Part shown: one piece after another, positions 14,891 through 44,243 of the stretch | How the letters are laid out: each line of letters starts with the position of its first letter | Numbering within the stretch: position 1 is the stretch's first letter | Source of the DNA: Luminiphilus sp. | Lineage (GTDB): Bacteria > Pseudomonadota > Gammaproteobacteria > Pseudomonadales > Halieaceae | Assembly (NCBI GenBank): GCA_029242325.1 | Contig: JAQWUD010000026.1 | Coordinates: 1-64,000 of the forward strand | DNA: 64,000 bases | Direction: 5' to 3' | Notes under the pieces: model-generated | What the model saw: only the letters and a program-made list of their open reading frames with translations | What the model was told of the DNA's origin: nothing | Database searches by the model: none | Translations under genes and position numbers: made by a program

Positions 14891-16813
14891 TCAGCCGCGC
14901 GCCATTTTAACGCGACCTTTGGGTTTGGGCTGTTGCTCGAGGAACTTCAATGCCCAAGCCTGAAACTCAGGTTGTCGCGGTGCATCGAGCCCCGTTTCCT
15001 TTTTGCACCGCTTCTTCAGCTCGGCGATGTCACCACCACGGTCAAACATCTTGACCTTGCCGCGCGACTTCGCCATACGCGCTCGCAGCGACTTGGTTTT
15101 CTTCTCGTCCACAGTGAGGTCTGCGTTCATGACCACGCCGTAACGTCGGGCACCCTCGGTTGAAACCAAGCCCGCTCGCACGTCAAATTCAACGCGTTCG
15201 GTCTCTCTCTTGAGAGGATCACCACAGCCTCCTCCACCCCAAGTGTTGAAGTACAGAATGTCCCCGGCGCTGACGGCGATGCGGTCACACTTACTTGGCA
15301 TCCGCTCTTCACTACCATCGACTCGCTTCAGGATTTTTTCTGAGCGGCGTCCCGGCAAGCCTCCATTCACACCCCAGGGATAAGTGAGCCACCGATCGTC
15401 ATGGATCGAGATCGTTCCCGGCTCCAAAAAGCAGTAACCCATACGCAGCCCGTTACCACCCCGGTTGTAGCCGGCACCACCACTGTCCGTGATAGTCTCG
15501 TAGGCCTCGATTCGCAGCGGAAAGTAGCTCTCGAGGAACTCATTGGGCACATTGGTAAAGCTCGGCCACAGTGAATGACCATCCGGGCCGTCGCCCGAGG
15601 GCTTCCCGGGGATACCACCAAAGCCAATTGAATACAGCTGATACCACTCGCCATTCTTATCGTAGCCCGAGTACATAAAATGAGGGCTGTCGGAGAACCC
15701 GGCTCCGGCGAGAAAATCCGGATCTCCTTGCCCCAACAAGCCGCCCAGCACATCGAATATACGGCCCAATGCGTGAGTTCGACACGACAGTGCGGCTGGC
15801 TCTCGTGGTTTCAACAACGTACCTTCCGGAATATGAACTTCCATCAGATCGTAAAAACCGTCGTTGAACATAATCTGGGGGTCAAACACCATAATCATGT
15901 AAACCCCGCAGAACATCTTGAACATCTCCTCGTTGAGGTAGAAGTTAATCGAGCTAATCGACTGCGGGTCAGTGCCATCAAAGTCGAAAATGACTTTGTC
16001 TTTATCGCGCCACATGGAGCACTTGATTCGATACGGGCCCATCCCTAAGCCGTCATCACAAATATAATCTTCGAAGTACTGCTTTTTCTCCGGGACGGTA
16101 TCTTTAATAAGCTTGGCCATGGCGCGCTTATTGCGGGCCAGAAGCTCATCAAGTGCAGAGTAATACTCGTCGTCACCGAAGCGCTCCGCCATCTCAATCA
16201 CGCGCTTTTCCGCCGTTCGCATTGCAGCCACCAGCGCATTGAAGTCACTGCGATTCCACGTCGGCATACGGCTGTTATGCAAAATGAGGTTAAGCACATC
16301 TGTCTGCAGTTCGTCATTTTTAAATATCTTGAGTGGCGGTACGCGAATACCCTCCTCAAAGATTTCTCGAGCGTCCGTGGGCAGACTACCCGGCACCTTG
16401 CCACCCACATCAGTCATATGGCCAAACATGGCGGCATAGGCAATCAAACGACCGTCTTTGAAAATAGGCCGCAGGAGCAACCAATCATTGATGTGACTAA
16501 TGGCGCCATTACAGGCGTAGGGGTCGGTGGTGAGAAACAGGTCTCCCTCTTCGATAGTGCCGTCATAAGCCTCTTTAAAGCCATGGATAAAGCTGCCGAA
16601 CTGGCCCACCACCATCTTGCCCTCGAGATTGGCAATCATTGGGAACATATCATTCTGCTCCCGGATACCCGGTGACATCGCCGTCCGAAAGACCACTGCA
16701 TCCATTTCGTAACGCGCATTCATCATCGCGTTCTCGATAATGTCGAGAGTGATAGGGTCGATATCCTTACGCTTCAATTTCTTTGAGTTTGTTTCAACGA
16801 TTGTTGCAGGCAT
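14891..16813 (-). CDS. Hydantoinase B/oxoprolinase family subunit
   Basis: A 640-residue HyuB-type subunit that works with HyuA to open a five-membered cyclic amide or imide with ATP; relatives include 5-oxoprolinase, N-methylhydantoinase and acetone/acetophenone carboxylases. I start at MPATIVETNSKK (16813, GAGGGG upstream); the track start is 11 residues longer. Family landmarks are DPITLDIIENAMMNARYEMD, QNDMFPMI, DPYACNGAISHINDW and TDSGGAGYNRGGNG. A lysine/arginine-rich C-terminal tail of about 90 residues follows the core. The gene lies 16 bp downstream of hyuA and before a strong terminator. The real substrate could be any cyclic amide, or the pair could be a carboxylase. Confidence 0.9.
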   Translation of the reverse strand: MPATIVETNSKKLKRKDIDPITLDIIENAMMNARYEMDAVVFRTAMSPGIREQNDMFPMIANLEGKMVVGQFGSFIHGFKEAYDGTIEEGDLFLTTDPYACNGAISHINDWLLLRPIFKDGRLIAYAAMFGHMTDVGGKVPGSLPTDAREIFEEGIRVPPLKIFKNDELQTDVLNLILHNSRMPTWNRSDFNALVAAMRTAEKRVIEMAERFGDDEYYSALDELLARNKRAMAKLIKDTVPEKKQYFEDYICDDGLGMGPYRIKCSMWRDKDKVIFDFDGTDPQSISSINFYLNEEMFKMFCGVYMIMVFDPQIMFNDGFYDLMEVHIPEGTLLKPREPAALSCRTHALGRIFDVLGGLLGQGDPDFLAGAGFSDSPHFMYSGYDKNGEWYQLYSIGFGGIPGKPSGDGPDGHSLWPSFTNVPNEFLESYFPLRIEAYETITDSGGAGYNRGGNGLRMGYCFLEPGTISIHDDRWLTYPWGVNGGLPGRRSEKILKRVDGSEERMPSKCDRIAVSAGDILYFNTWGGGGCGDPLKRETERVEFDVRAGLVSTEGARRYGVVMNADLTVDEKKTKSLRARMAKSRGKVKMFDRGGDIAELKKRCKKETGLDAPRQPEFQAWALKFLEQQPKPKGRVKMARG

Positions 16814-16829
16814 TTTTATTTCCCCTCGA

Positions 16830-18890
16830 TCAAGCTGACGGTGCAATCAGGATGTTGCCGAATTTATCGACGTTGCCGGTGTGGCCAGCCAAGATGACCG
16901 TGGTCGAATCCATCTCCAGCACAATCGCGGGCCCGTCAATTTTATTGCCGGCTTTGAGTTCGTTTCTTCGATACAGAGTGGCTTCCATGTCCTTGCCGTC
17001 CATAAAGACTTTTGAGGTGCCAATCTTGGCCGCGGCAACCGGTGTACGGCTTCCTGCTTTGGTCACCTTTTTCGAATCAATCTCTGCGCTCTTCCCTTGC
17101 GCAACTGCGCGCACGTTTACAATCTCTTTGTCTGCATCAAGCGCAAAGGTGAACAGTTGCCGATGCATCTCATCGAAGGGCTCTCCGATGACAGACAAGC
17201 CCTTGGACTTCAGCTTCTTGAGATCGAAATCGACTGTGAGCTGCAAGCCCTGGCCCGAATAACGGATATCCGCCTGATAGGTCACCGACCGGTGCGCCTT
17301 GGGGACCCCCTCTTTCTCGAGGGTCTTCAATGCCTTGCTGGCAAGCTGCTGAAAGATCCGGCTCAGTTCCGCAGGAGAAGTATTACCGAACCGGCGAATA
17401 AAGGTTCTCGAGGCCTCATCGCGCACACGGGTAGTGGCGTCACCGTAGGCACACAGTACGCCCGGCCCAGGAGGGATAATCACAGGCCAACTGTTCATCA
17501 GCTTGCCCAGGGCGTTAGCGTGCAGTGGTCCGGCCCCACCAAAACCGATCAAAGCGAAGTCCCGTGGATCGAAACCCTGCTCTACAGAAACCAATCTGAG
17601 CGCGCCGTACATGTTTTCGTTGACGATATCGATGATGCCCGCCGCCGCTCTTTTCATCGAAATACCGAGCGCGTCAGCGATCGGCTTGATCGCCGCCTCC
17701 GCGCGATCCTTGCGAATTTCCATGTCGCCGCCAAGGCGCACTTCACTAGGCAGGTAACCGAGCACGACATTGGCGTCGGTCACCGTAGGCAGCTCTCCAC
17801 CCATGTTGTAGGCGGCGGGGCCAGGCTCTGCACCTGCACTTTCCGGCCCAACCCGCAGGGCGCCCGTGAGTTCAGGCACGTGCGCGATCGAACCGCCACC
17901 GGCCCCTACGGTCCGAACATCGACTGACGAGGCCCGCACGGTCACGTCGCCAACGGTTGTCTCTCTTCGCAACTGCGCTTTACTATCTTGCACCAGCGCA
18001 ACGTCTGTAGAGGTCCCGCCCATATCGAAGGTGAGTAAGTTGGCAAAGCCTGCCTGCTTTGCCACCCAGACTGCTCCTGAGACGCCTCCCGCGGGCCCGG
18101 ACATAAGCAGATTCACGGGCAAAGATTCAGCCACTTTTGCCGAGGCCATACCGCCGTCTGAGCGGAGAATGTGAAGCTTCACATCTTTCATGGTGCTCTT
18201 GAGTTTTCGTTCTAGATTTTTGACGTATTGCGCCACCTTGGGACGCACATAGGAGTTCGCAACCGTCGTAATGGTGCGCTCATATTCCTGCATTTCGGGT
18301 ACAACGTTGTAAGATAGCGAGACAGGTATGTTCGGAAATACCTGCTTGGCAAGTTTCTCCACTTCCCTCTCGTGAGCCGGATTCGCGTAGGAATTCACCA
18401 ATGAAATGGTCAGCGCCTCGATATTTTCTTTTTTGAGCCGCTTAAGCTCTTTTGTGAGGACTGTTTTATTGAGCTTGCGCACCACCTTGCCATCGGCTCC
18501 CATGCGCTCATCTGCTTCTATCGTGCAGGCGAGTGGCGCCAACGGCGCGGATTTGTTGTAGATCACCCAACCACCCAGACCACCCGGCACGTAAGACCGT
18601 GCGATCTGCAGGACCTGTCGGTAACCCTTTGTCGTAACCAAACCGACCTTGGCGCCAGATCCCGTTAAGACGGTATTGGTAGCAACGGTCGTACCGTGCA
18701 TTACCTGAGCGATTTCGGCCGGATCGATACCCGCGTTGTCGCAGATCTTTGCCACCCCATTCATCACTCCGATAGACGAATCAGCGGGAGTACTGGGGAC
18801 TTTGGCGGTATAGATAGCGCCTGATTTCTCATCAACGAGAATCAGGTCGGTGAACGTGCCGCCGACGTCGACACCAAGACGATAAGGCAT
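16830..18890 (-). CDS. Hydantoinase A/oxoprolinase family subunit
   Basis: The 686-residue ATP-binding partner of the HyuB subunit. It begins with the actin-like phosphate-1 motif YRLGVDVGGTFTDLILVDE; TFDMGGTSTDVALV near residue 290 and GAGGGSIAHV near 332 are the other signature motifs. The SD GAGGAGG lies 5 bp before the ATG. It begins the minus-strand hyuAB operon, divergent from the class III CoA transferase, with a copy of the proposed GntR palindrome between them (18984-18999). In this setting it may open an imide or amide ring whose acid product goes to the CoA transferase. Confidence 0.93.
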   Translation of the reverse strand: MPYRLGVDVGGTFTDLILVDEKSGAIYTAKVPSTPADSSIGVMNGVAKICDNAGIDPAEIAQVMHGTTVATNTVLTGSGAKVGLVTTKGYRQVLQIARSYVPGGLGGWVIYNKSAPLAPLACTIEADERMGADGKVVRKLNKTVLTKELKRLKKENIEALTISLVNSYANPAHEREVEKLAKQVFPNIPVSLSYNVVPEMQEYERTITTVANSYVRPKVAQYVKNLERKLKSTMKDVKLHILRSDGGMASAKVAESLPVNLLMSGPAGGVSGAVWVAKQAGFANLLTFDMGGTSTDVALVQDSKAQLRRETTVGDVTVRASSVDVRTVGAGGGSIAHVPELTGALRVGPESAGAEPGPAAYNMGGELPTVTDANVVLGYLPSEVRLGGDMEIRKDRAEAAIKPIADALGISMKRAAAGIIDIVNENMYGALRLVSVEQGFDPRDFALIGFGGAGPLHANALGKLMNSWPVIIPPGPGVLCAYGDATTRVRDEASRTFIRRFGNTSPAELSRIFQQLASKALKTLEKEGVPKAHRSVTYQADIRYSGQGLQLTVDFDLKKLKSKGLSVIGEPFDEMHRQLFTFALDADKEIVNVRAVAQGKSAEIDSKKVTKAGSRTPVAAAKIGTSKVFMDGKDMEATLYRRNELKAGNKIDGPAIVLEMDSTTVILAGHTGNVDKFGNILIAPSA

Positions 18891-32579: not shown

Positions 32580-34133
32580 CTAGTCTTTTTCAGAGGCTGG
32601 CGGAGGTTGACACCCTGTCGCACAACACTGACCTGGTTGCTTTTGCCGGTTGGGCGCACCCGATGAACCAGTCTCGGCGACACCGCGATCCAGCAGTCTT
32701 TCTACCAGCGCGCGTCGCTCTTCGATCGGGTAGCGGCGAAAGATCTCGCGCTTCATTGCCTGGGGTGAACCACCGCCATGCAGACTGATCACCGAGTACC
32801 AGCCACCAGTTGAGGACGCCGATATATCACCCATAAACCTGGCAACCTGCGCGCGCTGGTCGTAAGGGATGTCCGCCCGGCCAGCCAGCAATGTCGCGAG
32901 ATCACCCGATGTTGCTGGGTTGTGATCTTCATCAGGCCCAGGTAGCGCAACAATTAATCCCCCCGACACCTCATGGGCGATCCGGTGCATGTCATAGATC
33001 TGTGTGGCCAGCAGCAGCTTGCCCACGTTAGAAAAAATAGGCTCGGGCATCCATGACCCGCAAGGATCCTCGACACCATAAACTGATGCCGCGACGCCGC
33101 AGGCAAAGAAACCTTCCACCAACTTGATGAGCTCCGCCATGCTGTCGCGCAGGTGCGGCACGGACGCCATGTCAAGTCCATTCGCTTCTGTCATCAATGC
33201 ACCGGCACCGATTAGCAGGTCACCAAACCCAGCCCGCGCACCAATGCAGCTATGTCGATGGTGATTCGCATAAGAGGTGACCAAGTGCTCGGTGTACTCA
33301 CTCTCGCCGGCAAAGAACACCTGATCCCAGGGCACCAAGACCTGATCGAAGTGACACACCGCGACACTCTGACCGTACTTGGCACTGAACGCCGCTTCGG
33401 CCTCGCCAGGGCGACCCGCAGGCCGAGAGATAATGGTGAGTCCTTTGGCGTCAATGGGCAAGGCGCAACACACAGCAAAATCTGCATCCTCTTTACGCAT
33501 GGTGCGACAAGGCATGACCAACAGCTCGTGCATGTAAGGACCGCCCGTAACGATCGCCTTCACACCCGAAATCACAATGCCTTCGGCGTTACGCTCGGTA
33601 ATGTGGACATAGGCATCGATCACCGCCTGGTCTCCAGGGCGCTTGCTGCGATCCCCCTTGCCATCAGTCATCGCCACGCCCAGCGTGAGATCTTCATCCT
33701 GAATACGATGCAGATAAGACAAAAAGCGCTCGTGCTGCTCGCCGCCGGTCTCCTCTGACATCTGCCAGGTTGTCTGATAAATGGCATTCAAGGCATCGTG
33801 GGTTAAATAACGCTGAGCGCAGCCACTTTCACGACACAGGAGCCGTACTGCCTCGAGTTTGGAAAGCAGATCCTCTGAATGGCGGTTAATGTGCAACATC
33901 CGGTTCACGGTTTTGCCAGAGGTGCTTTGCTCAGCCAGCATCAGTCCGCCGTATTCGGGCTTCTGCGCAAAATCGTACGTGACGCCCACTGCGCGGATAC
34001 CCGGTTGCAGCCGGGGCTCGTCCACCACCGACTCAACGCGATCACCATCGACATAGACCTTGGGGTTGTAACCACGGAGGCTCTCTGTGTACTCGGCTGC
34101 ACTCATGATGCGGCCACCAGCTTTCATTAACAT
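32580..34133 (-). CDS. HpaB/4-hydroxybutyryl-CoA dehydratase-like flavoprotein
   Basis: A 517-residue member of the 4-hydroxyphenylacetate 3-hydroxylase/4-hydroxybutyryl-CoA dehydratase family. From memory it aligns closely with clostridial AbfD (SAAEYTESLRGYNPKVYVDG; VAMTDGKGDRSKRP; HGGGSPQAMKREI). Of the four [4Fe-4S] ligands of AbfD (Cys99, Cys103, His292, Cys299), the first Cys and the His (HHRHS) seem present, but Cys103 aligns with Tyr (SGCAQRY) and Cys299 with Ala (IGARAG). It may be a cluster-free flavin oxygenase or an altered dehydratase. A Cys-rich tail (QCCATGC) is unusual. AGGGAG precedes the ATG; it follows prpD by 18 bp. Confidence 0.88.
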   Translation of the reverse strand: MLMKAGGRIMSAAEYTESLRGYNPKVYVDGDRVESVVDEPRLQPGIRAVGVTYDFAQKPEYGGLMLAEQSTSGKTVNRMLHINRHSEDLLSKLEAVRLLCRESGCAQRYLTHDALNAIYQTTWQMSEETGGEQHERFLSYLHRIQDEDLTLGVAMTDGKGDRSKRPGDQAVIDAYVHITERNAEGIVISGVKAIVTGGPYMHELLVMPCRTMRKEDADFAVCCALPIDAKGLTIISRPAGRPGEAEAAFSAKYGQSVAVCHFDQVLVPWDQVFFAGESEYTEHLVTSYANHHRHSCIGARAGFGDLLIGAGALMTEANGLDMASVPHLRDSMAELIKLVEGFFACGVAASVYGVEDPCGSWMPEPIFSNVGKLLLATQIYDMHRIAHEVSGGLIVALPGPDEDHNPATSGDLATLLAGRADIPYDQRAQVARFMGDISASSTGGWYSVISLHGGGSPQAMKREIFRRYPIEERRALVERLLDRGVAETGSSGAPNRQKQPGQCCATGCQPPPASEKD

Positions 34134-34151: not shown

Positions 34152-35570
34152 TCAGTTCGCCTTGTTTGTCTCGGTGCGTAACAGCGCCATCAGCGCTGTT
34201 ACGTCCTCAAGCTCATCCATTCGTTGCAGAGACTCCCAAAGCGCCTCTGCCCGCTCAGTGCTTATGGTCAATGCGCAGTTCGCCATAAACTTCTCGTAAA
34301 CCTGCTCGGCACCCAGCAACCGACCCGCAGCGCCGCGGTTAATCTCTTCAAAATGCGCCAACACCCGCCCATCTTTGGTGTTGATGCGAACACCCCCGGA
34401 AAAAGCATCGGGGTAGCATGAGCGAGCGTCATGTTCACAGTGAATACGCTGCGCAAGGGCAAGTACGTCACTATTAAGTCGCGCGGCGTCCTCAAGCTCT
34501 GCCAACCCGAAGCGCCCCTTCACCAGCGCCGTTGCCACCGCATAGGGCACACTAAACTTGGCGTCGTACTCACTCTGCGGCACGCGCTTACTCTCGATCG
34601 GGTCAGCCACCACGCCAAACTGGCGTTCATCGAGCAGCGCCGTGACCGATTCAATCTCCTCCATCGAAACCCTATGCTGTTCTCGCAAGAACAATGCGGC
34701 GTCAACCGGCGCATGGTTAAAATGACAGATCGGATAGGGCTTGATGGCCACCGTTCTCAAGGCCCAATCCGTAAAGAGCTGCGCCGAGATCGTCTCTGTT
34801 TCCACGGCAGTTCCCGGCGCGTAAAGCGAGTAAAAGCCGTAGCGTCCGCCGTAGGCCTCTCCCGGGCCCTCAAAGCCACTGACACCCAGAGAGGCTGCCT
34901 GCAACGCGGCTGAGGCCGCCCAACCGGGATGCAGCCGTTTGGTCCAGCTCCCATCGTCCAGGAATGCCATGCTGCCGCTACTCAAACTGAGTGCGACACC
35001 CTGACTTCTCACTGCGGCCGCCTCATCACCGCCGAGCAAACGGGCGGCTGCCACCGCCGCGCCAAAAACACCCACCACACCGGTGGGGTGAAAACCCACC
35101 TGCTGGAATACCCCGCCTGCCTGCATGCCCAACAACGCATCAATTTCAATCGCTATCAGTGTCGCCAACAGGAGATTCTGGCCACTGAGCTGCTGCTGTT
35201 CGGCCAGCGCCAGCGCAGCAGGGAAGGCACTGGCAGAACAGTGCACCACTGAGGCCATATGGGTATCGTCGTAGTCGAGACCATGAATGAGCAAGCCGTT
35301 CATCAAAGCGGCGTCGCGCAGCGCAACCGTCCGCGCCTGCCCGATGATGCTCGCACTGCCCTGGCTACCCAATACGTCGAGTGATTGCAGTGATTTCGCG
35401 GCAAAGTCGTAATGTCTTGAGGCGAAGGCAATCCCCACGGCATCAGCAAGACACAGCTTCAAGTAGTCCCAGACATCCTGCGGCACATCATTCATATTCA
35501 GGGCCAGCGCGCGCGCTGCAATCGCCTGGCTCAGCGGCGCTATCTGATGTTTAACGTGGGAGGGTTGCAT
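34152..35570 (-). CDS. MmgE/PrpD-family protein
   Basis: A 472-residue member of the 2-methylcitrate dehydratase/cis-aconitate decarboxylase family, starting at MQPSHVKHQI (35570, GGAG upstream); the track extension to 35603 runs over a candidate operator. The landmark HGLDYDDTHMASVVHCSASAFPAALALAE (only part quoted: HGLDYDDTHMASVVHCS) and HPGWAASAALQAA fit the family. A PrpD-type gene of unclear function also occurs in the Pseudomonas itaconate locus. It could dehydrate, isomerise or decarboxylate a tricarboxylate or branched dicarboxylate. It precedes the AbfD-like gene in a two-gene operon. Confidence 0.92.
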   Translation of the reverse strand: MQPSHVKHQIAPLSQAIAARALALNMNDVPQDVWDYLKLCLADAVGIAFASRHYDFAAKSLQSLDVLGSQGSASIIGQARTVALRDAALMNGLLIHGLDYDDTHMASVVHCSASAFPAALALAEQQQLSGQNLLLATLIAIEIDALLGMQAGGVFQQVGFHPTGVVGVFGAAVAAARLLGGDEAAAVRSQGVALSLSSGSMAFLDDGSWTKRLHPGWAASAALQAASLGVSGFEGPGEAYGGRYGFYSLYAPGTAVETETISAQLFTDWALRTVAIKPYPICHFNHAPVDAALFLREQHRVSMEEIESVTALLDERQFGVVADPIESKRVPQSEYDAKFSVPYAVATALVKGRFGLAELEDAARLNSDVLALAQRIHCEHDARSCYPDAFSGGVRINTKDGRVLAHFEEINRGAAGRLLGAEQVYEKFMANCALTISTERAEALWESLQRMDELEDVTALMALLRTETNKAN

Positions 35571-35582
35571 CTGGGACTCCGT

Positions 35583-35598
35583 AAATGTCCGGACATGA
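35583..35598. promoter_or_regulatory. Candidate GntR operator 4 (prpD promoter)
   Basis: AAATGTCCGGACATGA contains the perfect 12-bp palindrome ATGTCCGGACAT and matches the proposed 16-mer at 14 positions. It is 13 bp upstream of the prpD-like ATG. Confidence 0.62.
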
Positions 35599-35727
35599 TA
35601 CACAAAGGCCCCAGCGATGCCGACCCTGATAGCCGCCAGTTGTTAGCGCAAGTCTGAATTGACGGGCAGCAGAGCGCATTTCACCTAAATTGGCGGAAAC
35701 GGGCTGGCCCCCGCTTATGGGATGGTA

Positions 35728-36618
35728 TCAGCCGCTCTGAAGCTTATCGGCCAGCGCAAGAATTCGCTGACTTTTATAAACGATGGGATAATCGATGAAG
35801 TAGCCATCTAGCTGGATGGAGGCAGAGCCCGCCGCCTCTGCCGCCTCAAATGCCTCGACCACCGCGCGCGCGTGAGCGATTTCGGCCTCTGAGGGCGAAA
35901 AGACCTGATGCGTAAGCGGCACCTGGCTGGGGTGGATACACAACTTACCCCCAAAACCAAACTGTTTGCCGTGCCCTGCCGATTGCAGAAAACGCTCGTC
36001 GTCGCGAATTTGTAGTACTACCGTATCGATCGGTGGCTCCAGATCTCCCAACCGCGATGCGTGCGAGAGCCTGGCTCGCGCGTATGCCAACACCGCCTCG
36101 TCTGCATGCCACTCGTAATTCAAATCCAGGGTGTAATCTCCCCCGCCAAAGGCCAGCCTGCGGATGCGGCTGTCTGCCGTCGCAATTTTTTTAGCCAACT
36201 CAACACCCGCCGCAGTCTCGATAATGGGCATGAGATCGAGCTGCCCCACGGGCATCCCCTGAGCCGCCTCTGCTGCCGCCAACAGCCTTTCAAGCTGATT
36301 CAGACAGGAGCGGGATTCGACTTTCGGCAAAACCACGCCATCCAGCCACGGACCGACTGTCGCCTTGATATCGTCTTGGCAGTAAGGAGTATCTACACCG
36401 TTCACCCGGACATAATGCTTGGCTTTGCTATTAGGCCGACTTTTGAATGCGTCCACAACACATTGGCGGGCAGCCTCCTTCTCGTTGATGGCCACGGCAT
36501 CCTCAAGGTCCAAGATGACCGCGTCTGCACCCACTTCAAAGACTTTCTCGACTCGCCGCGGATGATTGGAAGGTGTAAACAGAAAGCTGCGGATCGGCTC
36601 GTAATGAAACTCGGTCAC
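35728..36618 (-). CDS. CitE-like acyl-CoA lyase (HpcH/HpaI aldolase family)
   Basis: A 296-residue TIM-barrel lyase that splits or forms beta-hydroxyacyl-CoA thioesters such as citramalyl-CoA or malyl-CoA. IRSFLFTPSNHPRRVEKVFEVGADAVILDLEDAV is the classic start with the metal-adjacent aspartates; LMPIIETAAG carries the metal glutamate and LAFGGGDYTLDL another ligand region; GGKLCIHPSQ is the C-terminal signature. The start is GTG at 36618 with GGAG nine bases upstream. The gap to the gntR stop is 2 bp, so both share a message. By analogy with Ccl it would yield acetyl-CoA and pyruvate. Confidence 0.93.
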   Translation of the reverse strand: MTEFHYEPIRSFLFTPSNHPRRVEKVFEVGADAVILDLEDAVAINEKEAARQCVVDAFKSRPNSKAKHYVRVNGVDTPYCQDDIKATVGPWLDGVVLPKVESRSCLNQLERLLAAAEAAQGMPVGQLDLMPIIETAAGVELAKKIATADSRIRRLAFGGGDYTLDLNYEWHADEAVLAYARARLSHASRLGDLEPPIDTVVLQIRDDERFLQSAGHGKQFGFGGKLCIHPSQVPLTHQVFSPSEAEIAHARAVVEAFEAAEAAGSASIQLDGYFIDYPIVYKSQRILALADKLQSG

Positions 36619-36620
36619 GA

Positions 36621-37424
36621 TTAGTTACTCCAGGACCAATGGTCAGCAGTCTGCCAACCTCGGGTAAATTCAAAGGTGTAGCTGAAATTACTGGCGGGGT
36701 GCTCTGAAATTGATACTTCGAAAACGCGCCCGCCGTTTCCTCGATAAGAACGACACACACTGAGCGAGGGCGAGCCGGCGTCGACACCCAGCGCCTTGGC
36801 TTTCTGCGCGTTTAACACGCCAGCGGTCACACGAACGATGATCTTTTCTATGTTTTCCGAGAATGTGTCGGCAATCATTTCGTAGACCGGCCTGGAACTG
36901 CCGGCAAGGCGATGCGCGATCGACCCGTACTCGGGAATCACATAAACATCGGCCCAGCAGATAGGCATGCCGCCCGAGCCCAGCGTTCGCAGCCCGGAAA
37001 TCTGCACCCATTCCTCCCCTGCAGCGCAGCCCAGATCACTGGCGAGCGCCTTGTCTGCGGTGACACGCTCCTCCGCAAGTAACCTGAAAAGGCTGCTGTC
37101 GGGGTAGCTGAACAGCTCCGAGGGTGAGCGCACCGTTTGCACAAACGCGGGCGTGGCGTTGGTGGAGATAACGAGTGTCCCCCGCCCGCGCTGGCGCTTC
37201 ACCAAACCCATGTTCTCCAGCACCCTCAGCGCTTCGCGAATGGTGTGTCGGCTAGCGGCATAACGATCGATAAGATCAAGTTCCCCTGGCAGAAAGCTAC
37301 CCACCGGAAACTTTCCCTCGCTAATACCTTCCAACAGCGCGTCAGATATCTGGCGATACAAAGGTGCAGTCGAGGCACCGTTTTTACCTTTAAGCGCCTG
37401 GATTTTCCTACGTTCTACTTGCAT
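36621..37424 (-). CDS. GntR-family transcriptional regulator with UTRA domain
   Basis: About 267 residues from MQVERRKIQALK (37424); the track start at 37487 would translate the candidate operator. An N-terminal winged helix-turn-helix is clear: PLYRQISDALLEGISEGKFPVG, SRHTIREALRVLENMGLVKR and RGRGTLV. The C-terminal half looks like a UTRA (HutC-type) effector domain ending EVSISEHPASNFSYTFEF. It is co-transcribed with the CitE-like gene and divergent from the MaoC-acyl-CoA dehydrogenase pair. A palindrome shared by five promoters in island 2 lies just upstream, so it is the natural candidate for that regulon's repressor, with autoregulation. Confidence 0.92.
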   Translation of the reverse strand: MQVERRKIQALKGKNGASTAPLYRQISDALLEGISEGKFPVGSFLPGELDLIDRYAASRHTIREALRVLENMGLVKRQRGRGTLVISTNATPAFVQTVRSPSELFSYPDSSLFRLLAEERVTADKALASDLGCAAGEEWVQISGLRTLGSGGMPICWADVYVIPEYGSIAHRLAGSSRPVYEMIADTFSENIEKIIVRVTAGVLNAQKAKALGVDAGSPSLSVCRSYRGNGGRVFEVSISEHPASNFSYTFEFTRGWQTADHWSWSN

Positions 37425-37449
37425 GACGCGCCCCAACCCTCCAGACTTT

Positions 37450-37465
37450 AATTGTCCAGACATTT
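37450..37465. promoter_or_regulatory. Candidate GntR operator 5 (gntR / maoC divergent promoter)
   Basis: AATTGTCCAGACATTT matches AAATGTCCGGACATTT at 14 of 16 positions and lies 26 bp before the gntR start and 62 bp before maoC. It is followed by ACATTTTAAATGT, a further near-palindrome sharing the ACATTT arm. Confidence 0.6.
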
Positions 37466-37526
37466 TAAATGTATCTCTGACTGCCACAACCCAATTCGTC
37501 TCATTCCATACGACAGGTAGCTAACC

Positions 37527-38015
37527 ATGGCAAAAACCCCTGCAAGCGAGCGATATGCGCACCAGACCGGCCGTCTCTTTGAAGACTTCACAGTCGGAGA
37601 TGTTTACCACCACTTGCCCGGCAGAACGATCTCGCAGCAGGATAATGCCTGGTTCACCTTGCTGACAATGAACACTCACCCCCTCCACTTCGATGAGGAG
37701 TATGCAGCGGAAACCGAGTTCGGGCGCCCCTTAGTGGCGAGCCCTCTGACAGTAGCCATTGTAGTGGGTATGAGTGTTTCTGATGTGAGTGCCGCTGCCA
37801 TCGCCAATTTGGGCTGGAAGGAAATTAAATTGCCTGCGCCCGTTTTCCCCGGCGACACCCTCTACGCCAACACCGAGGTGCTCGATAAACGCGAGTCGCG
37901 ATCCCGTCCGAATGCGGGCATTGTCAGCGTACTGACCCGGGGCATTAATCAGGACGACACCGAGGTCTGTGTGTTCGAGCGCCAAATACTGATACCCAAA
38001 CGAAACGCCGCCTGA
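37527..38015 (+). CDS. MaoC-like hot-dog acyl-CoA hydratase
   Basis: A 162-residue MaoC/hydratase-2 fold enzyme. TGRLFEDFTVGDVYHHLPGRTIS begins the domain and the catalytic region reads TMNTHPLHFDEEYA, with the Asp/His of the hydratase-2 motif family; FGRPLVASPLTVAIVVGMS and ELPAPVFPGDTL-like strands follow. Relatives hydrate mesaconyl-, itaconyl- or other enoyl-CoAs. AGGTAG precedes the ATG. It is 24 bp upstream of an acyl-CoA dehydrogenase and divergent from gntR-citE. It would supply the hydration step before the CitE-like lyase in a C5-dicarboxylate route (inference). Confidence 0.92.
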   Translation: MAKTPASERYAHQTGRLFEDFTVGDVYHHLPGRTISQQDNAWFTLLTMNTHPLHFDEEYAAETEFGRPLVASPLTVAIVVGMSVSDVSAAAIANLGWKEIKLPAPVFPGDTLYANTEVLDKRESRSRPNAGIVSVLTRGINQDDTEVCVFERQILIPKRNAA

Positions 38016-38039: not shown

Positions 38040-39188
38040 ATGAGCCACGATGCCTCAGTAGAACAACAGATTCTGGCCACCATCGACAAGTGGGTTGAGC
38101 AAGAGCTGCGTCCCATCGCACAGAAATACGATCAAGCGGATGAATATCCCAGTGATCTCGTTGAACAGATGAAAGAGCTGGGCCTTTTTGGCGCGACCAT
38201 CTCAGAGACCTATGGTGGCCTGGGATTGAGTGCTTCTACTTATGCCCGGATCGTCTCGCGAATTTGCGAAGTGTGGATGGCGCCATCTGGGATTTTCAAC
38301 TCACACCTCATTATGGCCAGCTGCGTGGAGCGCGCCGGTACCGAAGCCCAAAAAGAACACTTTCTGCCAAAATTCGCGACCGGTGAATTGCGCGGCGGCA
38401 TCGGCCTGACAGAGCCCGATGCTGGATCCGATTTGCAGGGTATTCGTCTGGCCGCGAGGAAAGAGGGCAACGACTACATTCTCAATGGCACGAAAACGTG
38501 GATCTCTAATGGAATCAAAGGCAACTGCCTTGCAGTGCTGACCAAAACTGATTCCAGCGCGTCGCCCCCTCACCGCGGCATGAGCCTGTTTATCTGTGAA
38601 AAAGGTGACGGGTTCAGCGTTGGCAAAAAGCTCAAGAAGCTGGGGTATAGATCCATCGACAGCGCGGAGTTGATCTTTGAGGACTTTCGCGTGTCCGCTG
38701 GCAACCTGGTCGGTGGAGAGGAAGGCAAGGGGTTTCAGCAGGTAGCGGGAGGGCTGGAGCTCGGGCGGATCAATATCGCTGCGCGAGGCGCAGGCATGGC
38801 TAAAGGCGCAACCAACATGGCGCTTCACTACGCTATGGAACGCAAGACCTTTGGCAAAACCATTGCGGAGCACCAGGCCATCCAACTCAAGCTCGCCGAA
38901 ATGTCCACGCGCGCGGCGGCGGCGGAGCTTCTGGTGCACCAGGCAGCGGATAAGTTTGACCGTCACGAACGCTGCGATCTGGAAGCGGGCCAGGCAAAAT
39001 TCTTTGCCTCGGAGGCGGCCGTACAAAACAGCCTGGATGCCATGCGGGTATTCGGCGGTTACAGCTACTCACCCGAATACGAGATCGAGCGGTTCTATCG
39101 TGACGCACCGCTCTTGTGTATTGGTGAGGGAACCAATGAGATTCAGCGGACGATTATTGCCAAACAAATGGTTGCGCGAGCCAGCTAG
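38040..39188 (+). CDS. Acyl-CoA dehydrogenase, short/branched-chain type
   Basis: A 382-residue FAD acyl-CoA dehydrogenase. LTEPDAGSDLQG and WISNG are the flavin/substrate motifs, and the C-terminal GGYSYSPEYEIERFYRDA and IGEGTNEIQR include the glutamate (GEGTNEI) used as base by short/medium-chain enzymes, unlike the island 1 paralogue. AAGGAG precedes the ATG. It pairs with the MaoC gene; an acyl-CoA dehydrogenase also stands in the Pseudomonas itaconate locus. A substrate such as methylsuccinyl-CoA or another branched acyl-CoA is plausible but unproven. Confidence 0.95.
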   Translation: MSHDASVEQQILATIDKWVEQELRPIAQKYDQADEYPSDLVEQMKELGLFGATISETYGGLGLSASTYARIVSRICEVWMAPSGIFNSHLIMASCVERAGTEAQKEHFLPKFATGELRGGIGLTEPDAGSDLQGIRLAARKEGNDYILNGTKTWISNGIKGNCLAVLTKTDSSASPPHRGMSLFICEKGDGFSVGKKLKKLGYRSIDSAELIFEDFRVSAGNLVGGEEGKGFQQVAGGLELGRINIAARGAGMAKGATNMALHYAMERKTFGKTIAEHQAIQLKLAEMSTRAAAAELLVHQAADKFDRHERCDLEAGQAKFFASEAAVQNSLDAMRVFGGYSYSPEYEIERFYRDAPLLCIGEGTNEIQRTIIAKQMVARAS

Positions 39189-39194
39189 TACCGG

Positions 39195-39863
39195 TCAATT
39201 CAGCACCGTCATAAACTCGCGCGCATCGAGACGATCTGTCCGATAACTGTTCACCCGTGCCGCTGGGTCTGCGTAACCGACGGACATGCCACAGACCAAC
39301 ATCTGCTCCGCCGGCGCCGCGAGTATCGGCATCACGCTGTCTTGATAGGGGCAAAAAGCCGCCTGCGCGCAAGTTTCCATTTCCATCTCGCGCGCAGCTA
39401 ACATAAAAGACTGCAGGAACATTCCGTAGTCGATCCAACTGCCCTGCTCCATGTCGCGATCAATGGTAAAAAACAGCCCCACTGGCGCGCCAAAAAACTG
39501 ATAGTTTTGCACGCGATAGCCTTGCACCGCCGCCACATCATGTCGGTCTACCCCGAGCAATCCGTATAGGCCAAAGCCTGTCTGTCGACGCCGACCAAGA
39601 TAAGGTTCGCGCCAAGCACGGGGGTAATAGTGATATTCGTAGGCCCCCTCATCACCACTGAGATAACGTGCTGAGCAGGCCTCTGTAATCGCGTCCTTGC
39701 TCTCACCACGCACGACATAGACATGCCAGGGCTGAATGTTCGAGCCAGACGGCGCGCGCGCCGCAACCGTCAGGAGCGCTTCGATCTGCTCGTCGGAGAC
39801 AGCCTTGTCAGAGAGAAACGCACGAATACTTTGCCGGCCAGTAATAGCATCGGATACCCGCAC
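39195..39863 (-). CDS. Nitroreductase-family flavoprotein
   Basis: A 222-residue FMN-dependent oxidoreductase: GRQSIRAFLSDKAVSDEQIEALL, then ARAPSGSNIQPWHVYVVRG is the FMN-binding start, and QSFMLAAREMEMETCAQA plus VCGMSVGYAD complete the fold. Family members reduce nitro groups, quinones, enones or semialdehydes. The start is GTG. It is convergent with the acyl-CoA dehydrogenase (6-bp gap) and lies 9 bp downstream of the HMG-CoA-lyase-like gene, so the two form a minus operon. Physiological substrate unknown. Confidence 0.9.
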   Translation of the reverse strand: MRVSDAITGRQSIRAFLSDKAVSDEQIEALLTVAARAPSGSNIQPWHVYVVRGESKDAITEACSARYLSGDEGAYEYHYYPRAWREPYLGRRRQTGFGLYGLLGVDRHDVAAVQGYRVQNYQFFGAPVGLFFTIDRDMEQGSWIDYGMFLQSFMLAAREMEMETCAQAAFCPYQDSVMPILAAPAEQMLVCGMSVGYADPAARVNSYRTDRLDAREFMTVLN

Positions 39864-39872
39864 ATTAACAGC

Positions 39873-40769
39873 TCATGCGCATTGCTTGGCTAACCAGGTG
39901 TGCGCCCGGCCACCCTGGGGGGCGCCGATCATCTCACTGAGGAGACCCACAGCATCCAGTAGCTGGGGCATATCGACTCCAGTCTCATAGCCCATGGACT
40001 CGCACAGCATGACCACATCCTCGGTAGCGACATTACCCTTTGCACCGGGCGCAAAGGGACACCCGCCCAGACCACCAGCGGATGAGTCAAACTGTCGCAC
40101 CCCTGCCAATAAAGCAGCGTAAACGTTGGCAAGACCCATAGCGCGGGTGTCATGGAAATGGCAACCGAGGTGCTCGGGACCATAACGATCGACCAGTTGC
40201 GTCATCATGGACTGCACCGCTGCAGGGTTGGCCGCCCCGATGGTATCGGCAATCATCAGCCTCGCCGGCTTATGCTGCATGAGTCGCTCAACCTGCTGGA
40301 GCACTAGCGCCTCCGGCACCGCACCCTCATAGGGGCACTCGAAGGCCACCGCAAGATACACATGGATCGCCACGCCTTCCTCAGCCGCGCGATCGAGGAT
40401 CTCCTCGCCCATCACAAAGGTGTCCTCGAGCCCCTTGCGAATGTTGTTCTCATTCATTTGCTCAGTAGCGGCAATCGCAATGGCATGGCTCTTGATGCCG
40501 GCCCGCACCGCCAGCTCATAGCCCTTCATATTAGGCACCAAAGCACTGTAGTCGAGTGCGGCGGGAGGGAGATTCGCTGCTATTTCATCCGTGCCCGCCA
40601 TTTGTGGCACCGCCTTGGGTGAGACGAAGGAGCCAATCTCCAACTCAGGCACCCCGGTTTTGGCTAGCGCAGCCAACAGACTGATGCGCTGCTCGACCGT
40701 CAAATGTTTTGGCTGAGCCTGCAAACCATCGCGGGCCGCAACCTCTTTAATCATCACTTTCTCTGCCAC
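39873..40769 (-). CDS. Hydroxymethylglutaryl-CoA lyase-like enzyme
   Basis: A 298-residue DRE-TIM barrel lyase. KEVAARDGLQAQPK carries the catalytic Arg-Asp; HFHDTRAMGLANV holds the metal histidines; GGCPFAPGAKGNVATED includes the catalytic-loop cysteine of HMG-CoA lyases. It should cleave a 3-hydroxy-3-methylacyl-CoA to acetyl-CoA plus a 3-oxo acid. Besides leucine catabolism, relatives act on other branched hydroxyacyl-CoAs. No other leucine pathway genes (mccA/B, ivd set) are beside it, so it may serve the island 2 pathway. It is co-oriented with the nitroreductase. Confidence 0.92.
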   Translation of the reverse strand: MAEKVMIKEVAARDGLQAQPKHLTVEQRISLLAALAKTGVPELEIGSFVSPKAVPQMAGTDEIAANLPPAALDYSALVPNMKGYELAVRAGIKSHAIAIAATEQMNENNIRKGLEDTFVMGEEILDRAAEEGVAIHVYLAVAFECPYEGAVPEALVLQQVERLMQHKPARLMIADTIGAANPAAVQSMMTQLVDRYGPEHLGCHFHDTRAMGLANVYAALLAGVRQFDSSAGGLGGCPFAPGAKGNVATEDVVMLCESMGYETGVDMPQLLDAVGLLSEMIGAPQGGRAHTWLAKQCA

Positions 40770-40961: not shown

Positions 40962-43550
40962 TTAACCGTCAACCAGCGAGCGGGCAGTCTCGACGATCGA
41001 TGTGGCGTCAATCTTAAAGTATGCCCTCAATTCCTCACGCCGCTCACTGAGACCAAATCCATTAGCCCCAAGGGCTGTGTAGGGTCCCGGCATCCAGCTT
41101 GCAATCATTCGGGGCAAGGCCGTCATGTAATCTGTCACCGCAAGCGTCGGCACATTCGGGTCATCAAATAGCTGGCTGATCCAGCTTGCCTCTCCCTCCC
41201 CTGCTGCCGTTCTTGAAGCAATTTCTGCACGCTCGGCATCGCGCGCGAGTTCGACGTAGCTGGTAATACTGTATACCGCGACTGCATAACCTTGCGAGCG
41301 CAATTGCTCTGCCGCTCGCTGCACCTCAAAGAGGATCGTACCAGAACCCAGGAGGTTAATCCGCGCGCCATTTTTAGCAGCCGGCTCCAGCAAATAGCCG
41401 CCGCGCGTGACCCCCACATCGAGGTCCGGTAACTCAGGACGCGCAGGCATCGGTAGCGCTTCGTTGTACATCATCAGGTAGAACAGTTCGTCGTGATCTT
41501 CTATGAACATCCTCTGGATACCGAATCCGACCAAAATGGCAAGCTCCCAGGCAAAAGCAGGGTCATAAGTTCTGACCGATGGTACGGTGCTGGCAAGAAT
41601 GGGCGAATGGCCGTCCTGATGCTGTAAACCTTCTCCGTTCAGCGTGGTACGGCCGGCTGTGCCTCCCAATAGAAATCCGCGTGCCATCATGTCAGCGGAA
41701 GCCCAAATCATGTCTCCTACACGCTGAAAACCAAACATCGAGTAGAAAATGTAAAAGGGTATCGTGGGCACAGAAAAAGTGGCGTATGCGGTCCCCGCGG
41801 CAATAAATGAGGCGATCGCACCGGCTTCGCAGATGCCCTCCTGTAGGATCTGGCCATCAATCGCCTCTCGATAGGTATTGAGTGATTCGGCATCCACCGG
41901 GGTGTAGCGCTGCCCATCGGGGGAATAGATCCCCGCCACTTTGAAAAGCGCATCCATACCAAAGGTGCGCGCCTCATCGGGCACGATCGGAACAACGTAC
42001 TCGCCCACGTTCGGATCTTTCAAGAGTTTGGTGAGCAATCTCACCATTGCCGACGTGGTCGACAGCGGGCGGCCGTCTGAACCGCGATTAAACGCATCAA
42101 AAACCTCGGCATCGGGCGGCGCGAGTGTGGAAGCGGCCACCTCTCGCTTCGGCAGATATCCTCCTAACACCTCGCGCTGAGCGCGCAGATAGGCGATCTC
42201 TTCACTCTCTTCAGCGGGGCGATAAAAATCGGCACGAGCGATGGCATCTTCGTCGAGCGGAATACCCCAGGCATGGGCACAAGCAATACGCTCATCGCGC
42301 GAGAGATCTTTCTTTTGATGTGCTGTATTGCGCCCCTGCAGTGCTGACCCCATACCGTCACCCTTCACGGTTTTCACAAGAATCACAGTCGGACGATCCT
42401 CGCTCTCACAGGCGCGGCGATAAGCCGCATAGAGCTTCTTCGGATCCTGGCCTCCGCGTTTTATCTGCGCCACTTCCGCGTCGGTGAGGGTATTCATTAA
42501 CTGCTCGAGACGCGGATCACCATGCACCCAGTGTTCGCGCTGCTGGTCTCCCGGGAGGATAGAGTAGCGCTGATAGTCCCCATCGAGGCATTCCTCCATC
42601 CGGTGACGGAGGACACCATCATGATCTGCAGCCAGCAAGGCGTCCCACCCGCTTCCCCAAATCACTTTCAGGACTTGCCAGTCGGCCCCTCTGAAAGCGC
42701 GCTCCAGCTCCTGAATGATCTTACCGTTGCCTCGCACCGGCCCGTCCAGACGCTGCAAGTTACAATTAACAACCAAGACGAGATTGTCCAGGCGCTCGCG
42801 AGCGGCGATGTTGATCGTCCCGAGGACTTCGGGTTCATCGGCCTCCCCGTCGCCGATAAAACACCAGATGCGCGCGTCGTCCGCGGCGAGCAAGCCCCGA
42901 TGTTGCAGATATTTGGCATATCGCGCGATGTAAATCGATATAGGGACTGACAGGCCCATCGACGCATTGGGCACCTGCCAAAAATCGGGCATGGAGCGAG
43001 GGTGGGGATAGGATGACAACCCCCCACCGGCGCCTAACTCCCGACGATAATTGCACAACTGTTGCTCGCTGAGCCGCCCCTCCAGGAAAGCTCGAGCATA
43101 CACGCCTGGCGCAGCATGAGGCTGAGGCAGCACCAAATCACCACGGCCGGCGGCGCTGAAAATGTGGTGAAAGGCAGTTTCCATCGCCGTTGCTGCCGAG
43201 GCGTAGGTCGCAATGTGTCCGCCCAGTCCAGCGCCCGCATCCTGCGCCCGCAGAATCATGGCAGCCGCGTTCCATCGAATGATATTTTCGATCCGCTTCT
43301 CGAGGTCCAGATCTCCGGGGTAGGCGGGTTGCTCCGATGGCGCGATGGTATTGGTATAGGGTGTATTCAACAAAGAATCCGCGGGGGTCACTCCCTGATC
43401 AATGCTGTACTCCTGCAGACGACGCAACAATGCTCGCACCCCCTCATTACCAAACTCGCGACGAATATCCTCCAGCGCAGAACGCCACTCCGGCCAATCA
43501 GCGTCGAGTAGCGCACTGACATCTACAGGCGGGATAGACGGATCAGTCAT
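40962..43550 (-). CDS. Homodimeric pyruvate dehydrogenase E1 (AceE-type), orphan
   Basis: An 862-residue thiamine diphosphate enzyme of the AceE family, starting at MTDPSIPPVD (43550, AGAGGGAACG upstream); the track ORF to 43949 runs into the divergent gene. The ThDP/Mg motif GDGEADEPEV...NCN begins near residue 230, and TAGRTTLNGEGLQHQDGHS is a strongly conserved AceE segment. E. coli AceE has 887 residues. No E2 (aceF) or E3 (lpd) gene is adjacent, so it must borrow them or act on another 2-oxo acid, as proposed for MdeB in methionine-derived 2-oxobutyrate oxidation. In this island it could oxidise pyruvate or a homologue released by the CitE-like lyase. Confidence 0.94.
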   Translation of the reverse strand: MTDPSIPPVDVSALLDADWPEWRSALEDIRREFGNEGVRALLRRLQEYSIDQGVTPADSLLNTPYTNTIAPSEQPAYPGDLDLEKRIENIIRWNAAAMILRAQDAGAGLGGHIATYASAATAMETAFHHIFSAAGRGDLVLPQPHAAPGVYARAFLEGRLSEQQLCNYRRELGAGGGLSSYPHPRSMPDFWQVPNASMGLSVPISIYIARYAKYLQHRGLLAADDARIWCFIGDGEADEPEVLGTINIAARERLDNLVLVVNCNLQRLDGPVRGNGKIIQELERAFRGADWQVLKVIWGSGWDALLAADHDGVLRHRMEECLDGDYQRYSILPGDQQREHWVHGDPRLEQLMNTLTDAEVAQIKRGGQDPKKLYAAYRRACESEDRPTVILVKTVKGDGMGSALQGRNTAHQKKDLSRDERIACAHAWGIPLDEDAIARADFYRPAEESEEIAYLRAQREVLGGYLPKREVAASTLAPPDAEVFDAFNRGSDGRPLSTTSAMVRLLTKLLKDPNVGEYVVPIVPDEARTFGMDALFKVAGIYSPDGQRYTPVDAESLNTYREAIDGQILQEGICEAGAIASFIAAGTAYATFSVPTIPFYIFYSMFGFQRVGDMIWASADMMARGFLLGGTAGRTTLNGEGLQHQDGHSPILASTVPSVRTYDPAFAWELAILVGFGIQRMFIEDHDELFYLMMYNEALPMPARPELPDLDVGVTRGGYLLEPAAKNGARINLLGSGTILFEVQRAAEQLRSQGYAVAVYSITSYVELARDAERAEIASRTAAGEGEASWISQLFDDPNVPTLAVTDYMTALPRMIASWMPGPYTALGANGFGLSERREELRAYFKIDATSIVETARSLVDG

Positions 43551-43601: not shown

Positions 43602-44243
43602 ATGCCGAGATACTACACGTTGGACACCGAGACAACAGCCATGAATGAACGTAAGGCTCTGGAACGTATTGACGGTGGTATGGGCCAAAAGCCTGCTTTG
43701 ATTATCGTTGATGTGGTAGTCGGCTTTACCGATCCGGCCTGCCCACTCGGTTCCGAGGCAGATTCGGTGGTAGCCGCCAACATTCAGCTTCTCGATGCCT
43801 TTCACCACGCGGAGCTCCCCGTGGTCCTGACAACCGTCGTCTATCGCAGCGATGATGAAGCTTCGGTATTTCGATCCCGCGTGCCCGCCCTGAACCTCCT
43901 TACGCCCGACTCTGATTGGGTAAAGTTTGATCCCCGGCTCCCCCTCCAAGCATCAGATCTAAAACTGGAAAAACGGCATGCCAGTAGTTTCCACGGCACC
44001 GACCTCGACGACTGGCTGAGAAGCCAGCAGGTAGACTCCGTGATAGTCACAGGCCTGACGACCAGTGGCTGCGTTCGGGCCACCGCAGTCGACGGCTTGC
44101 AAAATAATTATAGGGTGCTGGTGCCTCGAGAGGCGTGCGGGGACCGGGACCCGAAAGCCCACGAAGCCAACCTGTACGACCTCAATGCCAAATATGCCGA
44201 TGTGGTGACGCTGGACAACGTGCTCAAAGCCCTCGGCAGTTAG
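43602..44243 (+). CDS. Isochorismatase-family amidohydrolase (N-carbamoylsarcosine amidase-like), paralogue 3
   Basis: A 213-residue cysteine hydrolase with the Asp-Lys-Cys triad in IIVDVVVGF, LEKRHASSF and GLTTSGCVRATAVD. The TTSGCVRA context matches paralogue 1 at 21.3-21.9 kb, so they may be duplicates with related substrates. AGGATAG precedes the ATG at 43602; an internal ATG at 43641 is an alternative. It is divergent from the orphan E1 gene with a 51-bp gap. The reaction is probably deamidation or decarbamoylation of a linear amide. Confidence 0.9.
   Translation: MPRYYTLDTETTAMNERKALERIDGGMGQKPALIIVDVVVGFTDPACPLGSEADSVVAANIQLLDAFHHAELPVVLTTVVYRSDDEASVFRSRVPALNLLTPDSDWVKFDPRLPLQASDLKLEKRHASSFHGTDLDDWLRSQQVDSVIVTGLTTSGCVRATAVDGLQNNYRVLVPREACGDRDPKAHEANLYDLNAKYADVVTLDNVLKALGS

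Follow-up and report, generated by a model that had tools for sequence, protein, structure and literature searches.

The window analysed here, a stretch of 64,000 nucleotides from a Luminiphilus sp. contig, carries a gene for a homodimeric 2-oxo acid dehydrogenase E1 component, whose frame runs on the minus strand from an ATG at position 43550 to a stop at 40962 (Table 1). On one side the gene is flanked by catabolic genes and on the other by housekeeping genes, the first of which is dnaE. The original prediction had described it as a lone E1 within a catabolic island, divergent from an amidohydrolase and close to an HMG-CoA lyase-like gene, and much of this description was borne out: no E2 or E3 gene was present in the surrounding gene set, and the HMG-CoA-lyase-like gene lies directly downstream, after a gap of 192 bp. 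The divergent gene qualifies as an amidohydrolase in a loose sense, its product being an isochorismatase-fold cysteine hydrolase with N-carbamoylsarcosine amidohydrolase as its closest match (149 bits). Within the island, the HpaB-fold product scored 302 and 296 bits against vinylacetyl-CoA isomerase / 4-hydroxybutyryl-CoA dehydratase, versus 125 bits against HpaB.

Table 1. Genes of the E1 locus and the adjoining island (positions within the window).
Feature	Position	Strand	Remarks
HpaB-fold protein	32580..34133	-	nearer vinylacetyl-CoA isomerase / 4-hydroxybutyryl-CoA dehydratase than HpaB oxygenases
MmgE/PrpD-family protein	34152..35603	-	closest: IDS epimerase, cis-aconitate decarboxylase
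CitE-like acyl-CoA lyase	35728..36618	-	
GntR-family regulator	36621..37487	-	
MaoC / mesaconyl-CoA-hydratase-like protein	37527..38015	+	
acyl-CoA dehydrogenase family protein	38040..39188	+	
nitroreductase-family flavoprotein	39195..39863	-	PF00881; 3gr3, 226.7 bits
HMG-CoA-lyase-like enzyme	39873..40769	-	NF004283, 308 bits; PDB HMG-CoA lyases; lower border of the E1 slot
orphan homodimeric 2-oxo acid dehydrogenase E1 (type-II clade)	40962..43550	-	862 aa, intact
divergent isochorismatase-fold / N-carbamoylsarcosine-amidase-like hydrolase	43602..44243	+	upper border of the E1 slot; kept in relatives

Among named models, the homodimeric aceE profile TIGR00759 matched the window E1 best (1089.7 bits over the whole length; cut-off 859.9), and the nearest solved structures, by sequence as well as by fold, were those of E. 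coli AceE (4QOY, 2G25, 1L8A); an AlphaFold model of moderate confidence (mean pLDDT 76) served for the fold comparison alone. The ThDP and catalytic residues are all kept, namely, in the E. coli AceE numbering used throughout, H106, Q140, H142, Y177, D230, E232, N258, N260, K392, H407, E522, E571, Y599 and H640. Relatives in metagenome-assembled genomes of Luminiphilus and Halieaceae share 82-87% identity with the window protein. The gene is intact and, where present, evolves under purifying selection, with dN/dS of about 0.02-0.18 for those pairs that had a computable dS. Literature searches retrieved no study of this E1 gene in Luminiphilus, and the window E1 apparently represents an uncharacterised branch of E1 enzymes.

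Together with 54 further sequences, about 55-87% identical to it over their full length, the window E1 makes up a group referred to here as type II, whose members derive mostly from Gammaproteobacteria and also from Desulfuromonadales. All 55 of them formed a monophyletic group (support 1.0 in FastTree; SH-aLRT 100 in IQ-TREE), with both housekeeping AceE and the sequences named "mdeB" at NCBI falling outside in either tree; L124, L125 and L126, at first assigned to type II by identity, were counted on the housekeeping side after the trees. Judged from these phylogenies, type II is an old and deeply separate clade. Beyond the Luminiphilus set, ten type-II loci have an E2 gene that starts no more than 36 bp past the E1 stop, and in many of these E2-bearing loci a divergent Lrp/AsnC regulator is found, whereas neither an E2 within that distance downstream nor an Lrp/AsnC gene occurs in any Luminiphilus type-II locus. 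Two Halieaceae loci (L038, L043) retain the Lrp gene without an E2. As the E2-bearing loci are scattered across the base of the clade, loss of a dedicated E2 in Halieaceae is the likelier reading.

The Luminiphilus E1s sit on a long stem branch and all 17 lack the C-terminal ~30 residues, a tail that nearly all other members possess. Their N-terminal region is present, but unlike that of E. coli. This region is the general E2-binding part of alpha2 E1s (PMC8146983); since type-II members with their own E2 also differ there, it is uninformative as to AceF binding. For the same type of reason, absence of the N-terminal "DPxET" motif was not taken to prove that E2 binding is gone, as E2-bearing type-II proteins and the genome's own housekeeping E1 are without this motif as well. 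Besides, one Halieaceae genome (G027; L033 and L034) holds three homodimeric E1s, i.e. a housekeeping enzyme, a type-II enzyme beside an aldehyde dehydrogenase and a type-II enzyme with its own E2. In another assembly (G111), the E1 region is found, with identical match scores, at an end of contig C1 and again at an end of contig C7 (L036 and L037), which probably reflects an assembly overlap and not a duplication.

Relative to E. coli AceE, the window E1 carries G141P, V192A, T191N, F189V, A388V, Y394D and E401Q, changes that are typical of type II in the pocket area (G141P, V192A/S, T191N, F189V/M, A388V/I, Y394D, E401Q). Two of these positions, 141 and 192, presumably line the substrate cavity, as the E. 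coli structure and their proximity to Q140, H142 and M194 in the sequence suggest. Of 52 housekeeping E1s, 51 have G141 and V192; the remaining one (L139) sits within the mdeB clade. By comparison, P or A at 141 and G or A at 192 were found in 14 out of 14 mdeB sequences, and P at 141 (A in one case) with A or S at 192 in each of the 55 type-II members. The active-site comparison thus separates the pocket from that of housekeeping E1s at positions that are also changed in the mdeB clade, and the pocket of the window E1 may be larger. The tree calls for two separate changes to the state with P141 and a small residue at 192, and a single clade uniting type II with mdeB met with borderline rejection (p-AU 0.054, IQ-TREE). 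Because the joint clade was barely rejected, an independent alteration of the same pocket positions in type II and mdeB appears likely rather than proved, and one event is possible.

The genome, an assembly of 2.76 Mb and 96.5% completeness, contains exactly one other homodimeric E1 (C41:68658-71210), which is 48% identical to the window E1 and has a long AceF-type E2 directly next to it. The canonical aceE-aceF pair for which the original prediction had proposed a search hence exists, and the window E1 is not the only E1 gene of its genome, so that the refutation named in the prediction fails on this point. Four E2 genes were detected in total, namely SucB, AceF and two shorter ones. One short E2 follows E1alpha and E1beta genes. 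The small contig that carries the other (C11) breaks off within an E1beta gene; in relatives, the corresponding operon consists of E1alpha, E1beta, a PQQ dehydrogenase and E2. On these grounds the C11 E2 was rejected as a partner of the window E1. Since each of the four E2s has an E1 of its own, either here or in relatives, the window E1 is the sole unpaired E1. Of the four E2s, AceF alone has a homodimeric E1 of this kind as its usual partner. As an observation in its own right, a PQQ-dependent gene of the alcohol-dehydrogenase type is embedded in an acetoin-like 2-oxo acid dehydrogenase operon at L168 (contig C11 of the window genome, G000), L193 and L194.

The island is kept next to dnaE across Luminiphilus, in the order HpaB-fold, PrpD, CitE, GntR, MaoC, acyl-CoA dehydrogenase, nitroreductase, HMG-CoA-lyase-like, E1 and isochorismatase-like. 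At six loci (L169, L170, L173, L177, L178 and L181), the E1 slot is empty and the remainder of the island is retained up to the limits of the contigs; L177, L178 and L181 belong to the same subclade, and the stretch read for L177 bears no E1 remnant, the HMG-CoA-lyase-like and isochorismatase-like genes being close together. In L174 and L176, the slot is filled by an amidohydrolase-superfamily gene plus a small VOC-type gene. Because the island thus persists in relatives whose slot is vacant or occupied by other genes, the E1 is an island accessory with a weak tie: the notion of an E1 within a catabolic island stands as to location beside catabolic genes, but hardly as to a functional link, and the idea that the E1 is an obligate part of the island was weakened. 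As to the island itself, positions 14891-18890 of the window hold a gene pair resembling caprolactamase CapA/CapB of the hydantoinase family. A CapA/CapB-like pair adjoins the same HMG-CoA-lyase-like gene in L171, and two similarly sized genes are found there in L172, which hints at an island acting on a lactam or another N-containing compound.

MdeB of Pseudomonas putida, encoded in the mde operon, acts on 2-oxobutyrate. Neighbours of mdeB-clade genes include an ACC deaminase, which produces 2-oxobutyrate, and an acyl-CoA carboxylase, suggesting 2-oxobutyrate rather than 2-oxoglutarate as the mdeB substrate; the name of the NCBI records "mdeB: alpha-ketoglutarate dehydrogenase" (e.g. L203, L197) looks misleading. 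The window E1 itself scored 1034 bits against the mdeB-type model TIGR03186, under its cut-off of 1408.3, and falls into a different clade, so that membership in this family was rejected. That a second copy leaves the enzyme free to use a different 2-oxo acid, as was suggested by analogy with MdeB, is plausible in view of the pocket signature, yet not in the sense that the protein is an MdeB. Among type-II loci, L107 combines Lrp, E1 and a PLP enzyme of the cystathionine gamma-synthase / methionine gamma-lyase group, while other type-II neighbours point elsewhere (BKACE; an aconitase/IPM-dehydratase-like pair; an aldehyde dehydrogenase). Luminiphilus yielded no orthologue of the gamma-lyase-type gene of L107, which led us to reject methionine-derived 2-oxobutyrate for the window genome; a Cys/Met enzyme with 32-38% identity to that of L107 is present in most Luminiphilus genomes, with or without the E1. 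E. coli AceE turns over 2-oxobutyrate, but not the branched 3-methyl-2-oxobutyrate (PMC7696235). A modest shift of the pocket towards 2-oxobutyrate is plausible on this basis and, by the same token, the pocket signature need not signal a switch of substrate.

Taken together, we give about an even chance to the explanation that the window E1 is a paralogue that borrows AceF and Lpd and acts on a 2-oxo acid bigger than pyruvate, 2-oxobutyrate being the most likely one. Ancestrally, type-II E1s would have worked in a complex of their own, encoded with an Lrp-type regulator and an E2, and the dedicated E2 would have been lost in Halieaceae. The orphan E1 would then decarboxylate a 2-oxo acid slightly larger than pyruvate, with 2-oxobutyrate as the best candidate, and might transfer the resulting acyl group onto the lipoyl domains of housekeeping AceF, which the shared Lpd would re-oxidise, yielding an acyl-CoA such as propionyl-CoA. 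In a broader and more tentative version, which we regard as possible though doubtful, type II would be an unnamed, widespread E1 branch in which the pocket positions of MdeB changed independently, and in Luminiphilus, having lost E2 and tail, the enzyme would either plug into AceF or act as a stand-alone decarboxylase/carboligase.

Alternatively, the gene might encode a second, differently regulated E1 isozyme specific for pyruvate, with AceF common to both E1s. The conserved catalytic residues (including Y177, H407, Y599 and H640) and the aceE profile as best named model would fit, as would the CitE- and HMG-CoA-lyase-like enzymes of the island, which could release pyruvate or acetyl units. 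However, P141 together with A, G or S at 192 is never seen in housekeeping E1s of many lineages and nearly always in type II, and the age and deep separation of the clade likewise speak against an isozyme, which we hence deem unlikely. An enzyme that serves the neighbouring island by handling a specific 2-oxo acid made there seems improbable: several relatives, some of them close, dispense with the E1 while keeping the whole island, and other Halieaceae have it in unrelated surroundings, even though in all E1-bearing Luminiphilus genomes with assembled flanks it occupies the same position, with the HMG-CoA-lyase-like gene on one side and the isochorismatase-like gene on the other. Least of all do we expect an E1 acting solely by itself as a non-oxidative 2-oxo acid decarboxylase or acyloin-forming carboligase. 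The genome has a housekeeping AceF and reductive-acylation residues such as H407 are kept, both of which speak against it; in its favour are the missing cognate E2, the C-terminal truncation of the Luminiphilus copies and the precedent of E. coli AceE, which on its own catalyses carboligation with either pyruvate or 2-oxobutyrate (PMC7696235).

A single profile is the routine basis on which homodimeric E1 genes receive the name "pyruvate dehydrogenase", and the deep type-II clade, with a pocket signature of its own, lies hidden under it. Among the sequences examined, E. coli positions 141 and 192 separate type II and MdeB from housekeeping enzymes; if these residues set substrate choice, the sequence could be used to correct many annotations, in marine Gammaproteobacteria and elsewhere. 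Were the preferred explanation, an orphan paralogue drawing on AceF, to hold, this E1 would provide a natural example of two E1s sharing a single E2 core.

In comparison with known systems, the window E1 resembles E. coli AceE in fold, in its ThDP and catalytic residues and in exceeding the TIGR00759 cut-off. It differs from AceE in belonging to a separate clade, in being only ~48% identical to the genome's own AceE and in its pocket changes, which place it outside the housekeeping clade with its G141 and V192; besides, no aceF adjoins it, the genome's aceE-aceF being on contig C41, and the C-terminal tail of AceE is missing from the Luminiphilus proteins. Type II shares with MdeB-type E1s (TIGR03186) the character of a secondary homodimeric E1 with P141 and a small residue at 192, and in both groups an Lrp regulator is often near and an E2 sometimes absent. 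On the other hand, the window E1 stays below the MdeB-type cut-off and in another clade, type II has A or S rather than G at 192, and the mde-operon context of methionine gamma-lyase and Lrp is absent at the window E1, a gamma-lyase-type neighbour occurring only in the relative L107.
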